DNA from: Candidatus Aquidulcis sp.
Lineage (GTDB): Bacteria; Chloroflexota; Anaerolineae; UBA4142
NCBI GenBank assembly: GCA_020723345.1
Contig: DYJA01000058.1
Span: 1-42,531, forward strand
Reading direction: 5' to 3'
Length of the DNA: 42,531 nt
The translations under genes and the position numbers were made by a program. Below, piece by piece: positions 6,852 to 12,127 of the stretch. The first letter of the stretch is position 1. Each line of letters begins with the position of its first letter. The notes beneath the pieces were generated by a model. That model was not told the DNA's origin, searched no databases, and saw only the letters and a list, made by a program, of their open reading frames with translations.

Positions 6852-7940
6852 ATGGAAACGCAAACTGAAATTCGCAAGCCCATCGCGGGCGATGTGCCGC
6901 TGGCGCACACGCTCGACGAATTGGTGCGCGAAGGAAAATTATACGAGAAACTCGACGGCAAGCGCGTGCGCTGTTACGCGTGCGCGCATCGCTGCCTGAT
7001 CAATGACGGCGCGCGCGGCATTTGCCAGGTGCGCTACAATCGCGGCGGCGAACTGTTCGTGCCGCACGGCTACGTCGCCGCGCTCAATCCCGACCCGACC
7101 GAAAAGAAACCGTTCTTTCACATTTTGCCCGGTTCGATTACGCTGACGTTCGGGATGCTCGGTTGCGACTTGCATTGCGCGAATTGCCAGAACTGGGACA
7201 TTTCGCAAGCGCTCCGCGATCCAGAAGCGGGCTACGCGCCGCAACGCGCGTCGGCGGAACAGATCGTCGCGGTTGCGCGGCGCAGCGGCGCGCAACTCAT
7301 CGGCAGTTCGTACAACGAACCGCTGATCACGAGCGAGTGGGCTGTCGAAATCTTCAAACTCGCGCAAGCGCACAACATTCGCGGCATTTACGTTTCCAAC
7401 GGGAACGCGACGCGCGAGGCGCTGGAATTCATTCGCCCGTATGTCATTGGCTACAAAATCGATCTCAAGACGATGCAGGACAAGCAGTACCGCAAGCTCG
7501 GCGCCGCGCTCAACCACGTTCTTGACGCGATCAAGATGGCGCACGAAATGAGTTTCTGGGTCGAGATCGTCACGCTTGTCATTCCTGGCTTCAACGACTC
7601 AACCGAAGAGTTGATGGAGACGGCGCGCTTTATTCGCTCCGTCTCGCCCGATATTCCGTGGCACGTCACCGCGTTTCATCCCGACTACAAAATAACCGAC
7701 GCGGATTTCACGCCCGCGTCCACGCTTTTGCGCGCGGCGGAGATTGGGCAAGAAGCGGGCTTGCATTTCGTTTACGCGGGCAACCTGCCTGGCGGCGTGA
7801 AGAATTACGAGAACACGTACTGCCCCAAGTGCAACACAGTGCTCGTCGAGCGGTACGCGTATCGCATTCTGCGCGACAAGTTGACGGGCAAGGGTGTGTG
7901 TTACAAATGCGGGGAGAAGATCGCGGGGGTATGGAACTGA
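6852..7940 (+). CDS. amrS: AmmeMemoRadiSam radical SAM enzyme
   Basis: A 362-residue radical SAM protein of the AmmeMemoRadiSam AmrS type. The radical SAM cluster motif is CDLHCANC (Cys105, Cys109, Cys112; CX3CX2C), followed by QNWDIS, characteristic of this family. An N-terminal cysteine group, CYACAHRC...C (41, 44, 48, 58), and a C-terminal zinc-ribbon-like pair of CxxC motifs (CPKC and CYKC) flank the barrel. The usual partners AmrA and AmrB are not in this window. The chemical reaction is not established. The small antitoxin-like gene follows 19 bases downstream. The 3' end (7866-7934) has a second, degenerate copy at 8201-8269. Confidence 0.88.
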   Translation: METQTEIRKPIAGDVPLAHTLDELVREGKLYEKLDGKRVRCYACAHRCLINDGARGICQVRYNRGGELFVPHGYVAALNPDPTEKKPFFHILPGSITLTFGMLGCDLHCANCQNWDISQALRDPEAGYAPQRASAEQIVAVARRSGAQLIGSSYNEPLITSEWAVEIFKLAQAHNIRGIYVSNGNATREALEFIRPYVIGYKIDLKTMQDKQYRKLGAALNHVLDAIKMAHEMSFWVEIVTLVIPGFNDSTEELMETARFIRSVSPDIPWHVTAFHPDYKITDADFTPASTLLRAAEIGQEAGLHFVYAGNLPGGVKNYENTYCPKCNTVLVERYAYRILRDKLTGKGVCYKCGEKIAGVWN

Positions 7941-7959: not shown

Positions 7960-8196
7960 ATGGCAAAAACACTCGCGGAGATTTCCACAACGGAGCTTGA
8001 ACAACTCGTCGAGCGCACAATTGACAAGCGGTTGGAAGTCTGGCTCGCCCAATTAGCCGACGCGCTAACCGGAGTGAGTGAAGACGAGATGCCTCTCCGA
8101 TCTGATTTCGCCGCGTCGCTTCGGCGTTCTTTGGAACAAGCGCGCGCGGGTGAAGGGATTGACCTCAAAACTTTTCGAGAGCAATTGGCGCGATGA
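7960..8196 (+). CDS. Small antitoxin-like protein, no intact partner
   Basis: A 78-residue, charged, mostly helical protein (LEQLVERTIDKRLEVWLAQL..., FAASLRRSLEQARAGEGIDL, FREQLAR). Size, charge and the 'LKTFREQL' C-terminus are like antitoxin-type proteins placed ahead of RelE- or PIN-type toxins, but I cannot assign a named family. The ATG at 7960 follows GGAGG at about five bases. An ATG overlaps its stop (ATGA, 8193-8196), as in many two-gene toxin-antitoxin units, but that frame stops after eight codons (8219). Immediately afterwards the sequence turns into a decayed amrS 3' end. I infer that a toxin gene was lost or replaced. Confidence 0.6.
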   Translation: MAKTLAEISTTELEQLVERTIDKRLEVWLAQLADALTGVSEDEMPLRSDFAASLRRSLEQARAGEGIDLKTFREQLAR

Positions 8197-8200
8197 GTGC

Positions 8201-8269
8201 GTTCGGCGCGATCACTTGACGGGGCGCGGCGCGTGCTCCAAGTGCGGAGAGAAGATTGCAAGGTATGGA
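8201..8269 (+). pseudogene. Degenerate second copy of the amrS 3' end
   Basis: Translating this stretch gives RRDHLTGRGACSKCGEKIA, which lines up without gaps with RDKLTGKGVCYKCGEKIA at the end of AmrS (bases 7866-7934). Roughly 15 of 22 residues match, and the nucleotides are similar too. It has no start of its own and is only the last 23 codons, lacking the stop. It marks a recombination or insertion boundary between the antitoxin-like gene and the lower-GC DNA that begins near 8275. Confidence 0.7.
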
Positions 8270-8353
8270 AGCAGGATCAACCGCTTTCCGCCTAAAAGAA
8301 TTAAAGCCTGCAATGGATTATGCGAATTAGTCCCGCCCAATCAAAAGAACACA

Positions 8354-9415
8354 ATGTCCAAGACGCAATTCCTCAATAGGCTGTTTGATGCTCATGCTAA
8401 AGACCTCCAAGAATTTTATGCAGAAGAGGAGGATATCTTTATTTGCCCCATCTGCATGACCGGGTTCTCACGAGATGCAATAAAGGAAAAAAACGTGACG
8501 GATGGTCATGTCTGGCCCAAGTCTATACGAATGGTGAGTAAGAAGGCTAGAAATATGCACGTGCTACTTTGCGCGGATTGCAATCACGTTGCAGGGGAAC
8601 GTGGCGATGCGCAAATGCAGCTTCACGAAGAAATTCGGAAGGGCGAAGAAACTGGAAAACCGCACAGAAGCAGAATCGTCCATCTACGCAGAAAACAAGA
8701 CGACATTCCTATCAGTTTGAATGCGGTTGTTTCTTATAATCTTGAGGATAAGTCCATTACTGTCTCAGGCAGATTGGATAGGGATGCGAAATGGCGTGAT
8801 AGCAGACCGGAAGATCAAGCAAGATTCATGGAACTATTCCAGAAACAAGAACCTGTCGATATACTTATTCATCCGCCCAGAGATTACAAACCCGAGTTAG
8901 CTGAGGCGGGATGGATAACTTCCGCCTATCTTATGGGGTTCTATAGTCTCGGCTATCGCTTTATTTTCCATCCAAGTTTAGACCCAGTGCGAGAATATAT
9001 CTTGAACTCCTTCGACAAGACAATCAAAGAAAATCCGGTAAAACTAAATCCAGATGATTTTGGCATTTGGGAACAAAAGTCGGGCCATTCTGCCGATCCT
9101 GAATTGTTATTTATGGTTCCCTTTGAGTTGGGGAAGCGCGTTTATTTGCAGGCGAACTGCTTGAAGTATGAAATAAGGCTCCCGTTCCGATATCGCTACC
9201 CTGTTCTAATGCCTATTCTCCACCGTATTATACCTGGTTTTGCGATCAAACTTCCGTCATTACGAGAAGCCAAAGAAACCGTATTCTTCAGTATTCCACA
9301 CAACAAAATAAGCGGCCACCGGTCATGGTACGATGACTTATTGGGCACGCCTCACATCAAACGCGAGCCATTCCCACAAGATGCTTCGAGTGAGGAAAGT
9401 ATCGTGAGGCAATAA
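8354..9415 (+). CDS. HNH-like nuclease domain protein, lower GC
   Basis: A 353-residue protein. Its N-terminal zinc-binding HNH-like module has CPIC (Cys31, Cys34), DGHVWPKS (His52, the expected general base) and LLCADCNHVAGERGD (Cys73, Cys76, Asn77, His78), the usual CxxC...H...CxxCN order of HNH endonucleases. The remaining 260 residues match nothing I can name. The gene is visibly poorer in GC than its neighbours and avoids their GCG/CGC habit, pointing to recent transfer. The start ATG at 8354 has only a weak AAAGAA upstream; the open frame extends upstream through the amrS remnant, which is not part of the gene. The DNA methyltransferase follows after 24 bases, so a restriction or defence role is plausible but unproven. 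Confidence 0.75.
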   Translation: MSKTQFLNRLFDAHAKDLQEFYAEEEDIFICPICMTGFSRDAIKEKNVTDGHVWPKSIRMVSKKARNMHVLLCADCNHVAGERGDAQMQLHEEIRKGEETGKPHRSRIVHLRRKQDDIPISLNAVVSYNLEDKSITVSGRLDRDAKWRDSRPEDQARFMELFQKQEPVDILIHPPRDYKPELAEAGWITSAYLMGFYSLGYRFIFHPSLDPVREYILNSFDKTIKENPVKLNPDDFGIWEQKSGHSADPELLFMVPFELGKRVYLQANCLKYEIRLPFRYRYPVLMPILHRIIPGFAIKLPSLREAKETVFFSIPHNKISGHRSWYDDLLGTPHIKREPFPQDASSEESIVRQ

Positions 9416-9439
9416 ACGAAGAACAAAAGAGTTCTATCT

Positions 9440-10294
9440 GTGGAAAACAAAGCATACTACATCAACGATTGTCTCCGCATCTACCACACCGACATTCTGA
9501 CCACCGATTGCGTTCCCGCGAACTCGGTTGACCTTATCGTCACGTCGCCGCCGTACAACGTGGACATTCAGTACGGCGCGCACGACGATCAAATGTCGTA
9601 TGGCGATTATCTCGCGTTCACGCGCGAGTGGATCGCCAAATGCTACGCGCTCGCGAAACCCGAAGGACGCTTTTGCTTGAACATTCCGCTCGACAAGAAC
9701 AAAGGCGGACAGCAAAGCGTTTGCGCGGACATTACGACGATAGCGAAACAAATCGGCTGGAAATATCACTCGACGATAATTTGGAACGAGCAGAATATTT
9801 CGCGGCGAACCGCGTGGGGCTCGTGGCTCTCCGCGTCCGCGCCCTTCGTGATCGCGCCCGTCGAAGTGATCGTCGTTTTGTACAAAGAGAGTTGGAAAAA
9901 AACAAGCGGCAGCAAAAAGTCAGACGTGACGCGCGACGAGTTTATGGCGTGGACGAACGGCGTCTGGAATTTCAACGGCGAAAGCAAAAAGCGTATCGGG
10001 CATCCCGCGCCGTTTCCGATTGAACTGCCGCGGCGATGCATCAAGTTGTTCACTTTCGTCGGCGATGTCGTGCTCGATCCGTTTCTCGGCAGCGGGACGA
10101 CGCTCGTCGCGTGCGCGGAGACCGGGCGGCAAGGCATCGGCTTGGAGATCGACGCGAACTATTGCGAGTTGGCACAGAAACGCTTGGAGAAAATGTTCGA
10201 CCACGGAGAGCCGACCACCGACGGCAAATCCTTCGACTCCGCTTCGCTCCGCTCAGGACGCAGCAATCGGCGGTCTGCCGTCAGCGGTCGTTGA
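9440..10294 (+). CDS. DNA methyltransferase (N4/N6, SPPY type)
   Basis: A 284-residue site-specific DNA methyltransferase of the N6_N4_Mtase family (amino-methylates adenine or cytosine using SAM). Catalytic motif IV is TSPPYN (residues 35-40); the SAM-binding motif I, DPFLGSGTT (213-221), comes after it, so the order is that of the beta class. The target-recognition region lies between (about 110-190). Target sequence and base cannot be read. GTG at 9440 is taken as start because the conserved fold begins almost at once. The last 25 residues (from about 258) are not methyltransferase-like; they are encoded by an inserted repeat (10229-10258). The gene is followed after 9 bases by a PD-(D/E)XK-like gene, the arrangement of a type II restriction-modification pair. 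Confidence 0.9.
   Translation: MENKAYYINDCLRIYHTDILTTDCVPANSVDLIVTSPPYNVDIQYGAHDDQMSYGDYLAFTREWIAKCYALAKPEGRFCLNIPLDKNKGGQQSVCADITTIAKQIGWKYHSTIIWNEQNISRRTAWGSWLSASAPFVIAPVEVIVVLYKESWKKTSGSKKSDVTRDEFMAWTNGVWNFNGESKKRIGHPAPFPIELPRRCIKLFTFVGDVVLDPFLGSGTTLVACAETGRQGIGLEIDANYCELAQKRLEKMFDHGEPTTDGKSFDSASLRSGRSNRRSAVSGR
10229..10258. repeat. CCTTCGAC...GCTCAGGA dispersed repeat in coding end
   Basis: A 30-base repeat inside the methyltransferase 3' end. Its reverse complement matches 28 of 30 bases of 23914-23943 in the sigma factor gene. It encodes the low-complexity tail SFDSASLRSG. The following GGCGGTCTGCCGTCAGCGGTC resembles the heptamer arrays elsewhere. Confidence 0.8.
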
Positions 10295-10303
10295 GAGACG
10301 ACG

Positions 10304-10822
10304 ATGCCCAACGCGCGCAATCAGTACGACACACGCGATTGTCTGGAGCGCGGCGAGAGCGCGGAGCAGCAGTTCGCGCGCCTCGCGATTGCGCGCGGTT
10401 ATCGCGTCAGCGCGTCCACGGGGCGGCAGGACATTGACGAGCATTGGGATTTGCTGATCGTCAAGCCGGGTGAAACGCATCGCGTCGACATCAAAGCGAT
10501 GAAGCGGATCGCGCGCACCGACGCGCACGCGCAAGATGAGTGGGTGTGGATCGAGTTGCGCGGCGTGCGACCCGGCGAACGCGGCTGGCTCTTCGGCGGC
10601 AAAGCGGATTGGATCGCGTTCGAGCGCGCGGCGTCGTTCGTGATCGTCCCGCGCACCGCGCTTGCCGCGCTGATTCCACAAATCGTCGACGCGAAATCGC
10701 GCGTAAGCAAACCTACCGACGCCAAGTACAAAGTCTATCAGCGCGCTAATCGTCCCGATCTGCTCACTTTGGTCGAAATGACACAATTGGATAAAATAAA
10801 GATTGCAGAGTGGCGAAAATAA
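10304..10822 (+). CDS. PD-(D/E)XK nuclease-like protein
   Basis: A 172-residue protein. An N-terminal helix, GESAEQQFARLAIARGYRV, with conserved Glu leads into HWDLLIVK (Asp49) and HRVDIKAMK (Asp62, Lys64). This gives the spacing D-x12-D-x-K of a PD-(D/E)XK metal-dependent nuclease core. The later WIELRG and GWLFGGKADWIAFE segments fit the following strands. The family name is not certain; phage and bacterial hypothetical proteins of this pattern exist. Placed nine bases after a DNA methyltransferase, it is the best candidate for a cognate restriction enzyme. The base composition matches the methyltransferase, not the HNH gene, so these two may have arrived together. A promoter for enolase seems to lie in its 3' end. 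Confidence 0.65.
   Translation: MPNARNQYDTRDCLERGESAEQQFARLAIARGYRVSASTGRQDIDEHWDLLIVKPGETHRVDIKAMKRIARTDAHAQDEWVWIELRGVRPGERGWLFGGKADWIAFERAASFVIVPRTALAALIPQIVDAKSRVSKPTDAKYKVYQRANRPDLLTLVEMTQLDKIKIAEWRK
10769..10797 (+). promoter_or_regulatory. Candidate enolase promoter
   Basis: TTGGTC (10769-10774), a 17-base spacer and TAAAAT (10792-10797), within the 3' end of the preceding gene. Start near 10804, 37 bases before the eno ATG. Confidence 0.45.
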
Positions 10823-10837
10823 AAACCGAAAGGATGA

Positions 10838-12127
<1,290 letters not shown>

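Follow-up and report, generated by a model that had tools for sequence, protein, structure and literature searches.

Two genes of a three-gene row in a Chloroflexota genome, encoding the methyltransferase P0002 and the PD-(D/E)XK protein P0003, probably constitute a type II restriction-modification pair with a stable methylase and an exchangeable nuclease, and the HNH gene that precedes them, P0001, looks like a recent lineage-specific insertion. The window, by which we mean the whole stretch of 42,531 nucleotides analysed, lies on a contig of genome G000 (6.3 Mb, 132 contigs). The first-pass annotation had read the three genes as a possible new restriction or defence unit. When re-derived from the window, they are, as it had described, open reading frames on the same strand (Table 1), with gaps of 24 bp between P0001 and P0002 and of 9 bp between P0002 and P0003, and the motifs it had pointed out are all present: CPIC...GH...CADCN in P0001, TSPPYN and DPFLGSGTT in P0002, and D49-x12-D62-I-K64 in P0003. 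The 353 residues of P0001 are counted from an ATG, and its open frame extends 5' as far as a GTG at 8078. Ten further proteins of the window that were scanned are metabolic, transport, repair or surface-polysaccharide proteins, and neither a prophage nor a larger defence island was seen among them.

Table 1. Features of the locus, with positions in the window
Feature	Position	Strand	Basis
Radical-SAM gene, bordering the conserved site on the left	6852-7940	+	Pfam Radical_SAM; order as in G262 and G251
Partial copy of the radical-SAM 3' end, 73 columns, 74%	8199-8270	+	Source 7864-7936, E 6e-8
P0001, HNH-motif protein, 353 aa	8354-9415	+	CxxC-H-CxxCN motif, three distant relatives
P0002, beta-class DNA methyltransferase, 284 aa, GTG start	9440-10294	+	Pfam, PADLOC and PDB matches
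P0003, PD-(D/E)XK nuclease by predicted fold and motif, 172 aa, ATG start	10304-10822	+	Alignment, predicted fold, pairing and fusion
Enolase gene, 428 aa, bordering the conserved site on the right	10841-12127	+	Named from sequence; order as in G262 and G251

P0002 has the SAM-binding and catalytic motifs of a DNA methyltransferase and matches Pfam N6_N4_Mtase (E 8.2e-49), the PADLOC model for type II methyltransferases, MTase_II (E 1.5e-96), and PDB entry 2zie (E 1.7e-29). The order of TSPPY ahead of DPFLGSGTT is the signature of the beta class, and an SPPY motif suggests N4-cytosine methylation; judged by this motif, P0002 is probably of the N4-cytosine type. Its methylation motif could not be assigned from a methylome study of lake Chloroflexi (PMC6329791). 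The C-terminal tail of P0002 (10208-10291) reads through a REP-like repeat, with CTTCGCTCCGCTCAGGA at 10242. A similar repeat is found in the spacer between the methylase and P0003 genes of G262 (L063:7893-8000), and the linker RSPERSEG of a methylase-nuclease fusion in G316 resembles a read-through of such a repeat.

P0003 has no match above the cutoff in Pfam or NCBIfam and none in PADLOC; in PHROGs it gives a weak match (E 0.01) annotated as of unknown function, and a search of PDB sequences with P0003 or its profile returned nothing. Its one match in Pfam, to PDDEXK_5 (PF11645), scores 14.2 bits, below the gathering cutoff of 26.1, and just 2 of 18 family members match this model at all (best E 0.038). 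With its own Pfam score below the cutoff, P0003 is assigned from the family alignment and the predicted fold. In the alignment of 18 sequences H47, D49 and K64 are invariant, position 62 is D or E, and E21 is nearly invariant; E84, G94, G99 and E107 are also invariant across the relatives, which match P0003 at E values from 1e-19 to 3e-78 and carry conserved W-x-E and GWLYGKAD motifs of their own. The best Foldseek match of the structure model (pLDDT 86.3) is the homing endonuclease I-Ssp6803I (E 4.6e-4, probability 1.00). VIA-align superposes the model on Hjc (Z 9.2, rmsd 3.0, 108 residues aligned), I-Ssp6803I (Z 9.2, rmsd 3.3, 115 aligned), a domain of Eco15I (Z 8.3, rmsd 3.7, 109 aligned) and PvuII (Z 7.8, rmsd 4.0, 121 aligned), and a domain of NhoI is also among the fold neighbours in this range of Z 7.8-9.2, which alone might reflect merely a common arrangement of elements. 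Since the top fold matches are nearly all PD-(D/E)XK enzymes and the D...DVK motif is conserved, P0003 is, by predicted fold and motif, a PD-(D/E)XK nuclease. I-Ssp6803I and PDDEXK_5 are thus the closest known relatives in fold and in Pfam; however, P0003 is only 16% identical to the homing endonuclease, has a partner methylase and the motifs of its own named above, and no intron was seen. Comparison with the copy in G262 gives dN 0.23 and dS 1.5, and the resulting dN/dS of about 0.15 indicates that P0003 is under purifying selection.

The first-pass annotation had staked its reading on a model of P0003 having this fold and on homologues of the 172-residue protein being neighbours of methylases. 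The predicted fold is of this kind, and a methylase of the P0002 clade (63-84% identity) lies within about 3 kb of the P0003 gene in 9 of the 12 carriers in the phylum (G000, G262, G005, G064, G080, G342, G316, G007 and G270), so that the nuclease is linked to a methylase across genomes, as in type II restriction-modification systems. Close methylases of this clade are rare (about 9 of 251 phylum genomes, or about 4%, and 9 of 99 nearer relatives, or 9%), and the co-location is therefore far beyond chance. Nor is the linkage that of one frozen block, because the gene order varies: the methylase comes first in the window, G262, G005, G064 and G080, the nuclease comes first in G342 and G270, and the two genes converge in G007. 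In G316 they are fused into a single open reading frame of 477 aa with the nuclease N-terminal. Recurrence of the pair, together with this fusion, supports the earlier view that a methylase next to a PD-(D/E)XK protein represents a layout of the type II kind. P0003 also occurs without a methylase, in the other three phylum carriers, in a Trueperaceae genome and on Vibrio plasmids of 0.9 Mb. Two loci deserve mention in their own right. In G007 (L057:4953-8531) P0003, a winged-helix/HNH protein and a 514-aa protein without a Pfam match stand in a row convergent with the methylase, and at L061 (G169:C335), read from sequence only, genes for an HsdM-like methylase and an SMC-like ATPase adjoin a P0003 relative that is encoded on the other strand.

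The nuclease beside the methylase is not always P0003. A winged-helix/HNH protein of 192-206 aa (Pfam HNH 5.7e-10, PADLOC REase_II 2e-8) adjoins the clade methylase in G251, G046, G240 and, in decayed form, G267, all of them without P0003, and is present together with P0003 in G007. A BsaWI-like nuclease stands beside the methylase of G270 (Pfam RE_BsaWI, 1.9e-24), next to a P0003 gene that is frameshifted, where an assembly error is possible; nucleases of the same kind with weak scores are found in G328 (1.8e-4), which lacks P0003, and beside a more distant methylase in G023. The close clade methylases of G055 and G120 have no visible partner. The alternative nucleases thus mostly exclude P0003, with G007 and G270 as exceptions.

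The exchange can be followed at one orthologous site, with the order radical-SAM gene, methylase, nuclease, enolase gene, which is common to the window, G262 and G251. The nuclease slot is occupied by P0003 in the window and in G262, and by the HNH enzyme in G251, which belongs to the same genus. Directly before the enolase gene, G251 retains 56 bp from the 3' end of a P0003 gene (87.5% identity, E 3e-15); this length and E value, together with the matching orientation and place, rule out a chance origin. Relics of P0003 were also looked for next to the other methylases with HNH- or BsaWI-type partners, and G251 alone has one. In the methylase tree G251 groups with the window and G262 (96/93), and a wider group adds G342 and G316, which bear P0003 (92/94). 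The simplest reading of these sequences is that P0003 was ancestral at the radical-SAM/enolase site and was replaced in G251. Literature searches yielded no paper on the P0003 family and none on the exchange of nucleases next to a constant methylase.

Under the reading that we favour, P0002 would mark a specific site on host DNA and P0003 would cut that site wherever the mark is lacking, for instance on phage DNA that enters the cell, which would give the pair a role in defence. The methylase would be the constant part of such a locus, and its partner nuclease could be swapped among the P0003 type, the winged-helix/HNH type and the BsaWI-like type. The adjoining methylase and PD-(D/E)XK genes, their variable order and patchy distribution, the exchange of the nuclease and the single fusion all resemble known type II systems, whereas the nuclease P0003 falls into no catalogued family. 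BsaWI cuts W/CCGGW and belongs to the CCGG family (PMC4652773). That BsaWI-like enzymes, one clear and two weakly scoring, adjoin methylases of the P0002 family is a hint that the site of this family may contain CCGG; P0003 itself, in contrast to these enzymes, has no RE_BsaWI match.

P0001 has a different history from the pair. As already remarked in the first-pass annotation, its GC content is low, 44.8% against 58.3% for the window, and the partial copy of the radical-SAM gene, a probable scar of insertion or recombination, sits immediately 5' of it; these two features suggest that it arrived recently. The radical-SAM gene and this copy are separated by a stretch with an open reading frame of 78 aa (7960-8196), for which Pfam gives no significant match and which may encode a small antitoxin-like protein. 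The CxxC-H-CxxCN region of P0001 occupies residues 31-90 approximately and is followed by some 260 further residues. C31, C34, H52, C73, C76 and N77, the residues expected of an HNH protein, are invariant in P0001 and its three relatives, and the assignment is based on this family alignment, the score of P0001 itself against Pfam HNH_5 being 15.4 bits, below the cutoff of 27.5, which the G201 relative reaches at 27.5 bits. A PDB search with the P0001 profile gave only chance matches to zinc fingers. The three relatives, resembling P0001 over its full length, are the only ones in the data searched, and two of them are the only others in the 251 phylum genomes: that of G201 is divergent from a type III mod/res pair, that of G106 lies immediately 3' of a methylase-Mrr fusion, and the third, on an Embleya plasmid, is near a helicase gene and not a methylase. 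A search of phage records and viral contigs for P0001 found none.

Among known defence systems, Septu (PtuA/PtuB) came into question, since PtuB is an HNH protein and P0001 gives a weak PADLOC match (E 0.004); however, no PtuA ATPase gene adjoins P0001, whose neighbours are the radical-SAM gene, the 78-aa open reading frame and the methylase and PD-(D/E)XK genes, and Septu was rejected. Other PADLOC systems matched P0001 weakly or not at all.

The idea that the three genes form one unit is not supported as it was put forward. P0001 is absent from every other P0002/P0003 locus, also from the orthologous ones within its genus and family, which rules out a conserved trio of HNH, methylase and PD-(D/E)XK genes. 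In G251 the methylase follows the radical-SAM gene after about 100 bp with no HNH gene between them, and the position of P0001 is taken in G262 by an unrelated TerC/DUF475 gene, which suggests that the place between the radical-SAM and methylase genes simply takes insertions. We see about an even chance that P0001, as a mobile or defence HNH gene in its own right, came to lie here by accident and has no joint action with the pair. Such an origin is compatible with the restriction-modification reading of the pair, the estimates for P0001 concerning that gene and not excluding the pair. It accords with the low GC content, the partial copy at the left junction, the absence of P0001 from the orthologous loci and the helicase gene near the Embleya relative, although the other two of the three relatives do lie beside methylases, albeit in tiny numbers.

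Those two relatives, the 24-bp gap and common strand of P0001 and P0002, the independent combination of P0003, an HNH enzyme and a methylase in G007, and the succession suggested by G270, where P0003 is broken and a BsaWI-like enzyme adjoins it, and by the completed replacement in G251 could instead mean that all three genes act together, with P0001 as an incoming enzyme for the P0002 site or as part of a two-nuclease restriction enzyme. We consider this rather unlikely, given the rarity of P0001 and its confinement to a single locus of the pair, the different HNH family to which the G007 protein belongs, and the unrelated gene at the same place in G262. The presence of two nuclease folds beside one methylase is best explained by the pair plus a lineage-specific insert, with P0003 still in place and P0001, inserted upstream, perhaps an incoming second nuclease or perhaps a mere neighbour or passenger. 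Possibly the two-nuclease arrangement is an intermediate of nuclease exchange; that the present locus has been caught in mid-exchange, having acquired an unrelated HNH restriction enzyme for the same site and standing one step before the loss of the old nuclease with which this course ends in sister genomes, seems unlikely to us. If it were so, loci with two nucleases and one methylase would be transient intermediates in a succession of nucleases at a fixed methylase.

The family of P0003 extends beyond the phylum, to one Trueperaceae metagenome-assembled genome (L009, the only carrier in its own phylum), to the Vibrio plasmids and to 35 viral contigs; none was found in annotated phage genomes. 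Among 22 marine viral contigs (L022-L043, for example L026:3388-9461), those that extend far enough to display the neighbourhood have the relative flanked by genes for a T7-type primase-helicase and a family A DNA polymerase, with genes for a T7-type SSB and a 5'-3' exonuclease nearby. A methylase just ahead of it is of the N6/N4 type in L022, L023, L024, L027 and L030 and of the C5 type in L038 and L041, and none was seen in the others. The Vibrio plasmids (L010-L012, 0.88-0.94 Mb, non-mobilizable) carry their P0003 relatives without a methylase, near exonuclease, GIY-YIG and ERCC4-type genes, and an overlapping gene of 236-238 aa directly follows each. The fold family is not restriction-specific, as relatives occur without a methylase and are constant in T7-like modules. 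The phage relative probably serves as a nuclease in replication or recombination, and P0003 of bacteria was probably recruited as a restriction enzyme.

It is mainly this place in a phage replication module that keeps alive the idea of P0003 as an accessory nuclease, structure-specific or repair-like, with the true restriction enzyme being a second, variable and often lost nuclease. The T7-like position would suit a nuclease of branched DNA, Holliday-junction resolvases are among the fold neighbours, and the window, G007 and G270 hold a second nuclease beside P0003 (P0001, the winged-helix/HNH protein and the BsaWI-like enzyme, respectively). Vsr is an accessory nuclease of this kind for C5 methylases, and the deamination problem that it addresses is tied to the C5 type. 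P0002 is not a C5 methylase and would not pose this problem, six loci of the pair (G262, G005, G064, G080, G342 and G316) have no second nuclease beside P0003, and other nucleases mostly replace P0003, as the relic in G251 and its absence from G046, G240 and G328 indicate, all of which makes an accessory role quite improbable.

As far as comparative evidence goes, the type of system appears ordinary, type II restriction-modification, with an uncatalogued nuclease family and a well-documented swap of nucleases. A family without a Pfam, NCBIfam or PADLOC model thereby joins the likely restriction enzymes. G251, with the relic in its DNA, is a clear case of a restriction nuclease giving way to one of unrelated fold next to a methylase that was kept. 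This swap opens to testing how a cell survives the exchange and whether specificity is set by the methylase.
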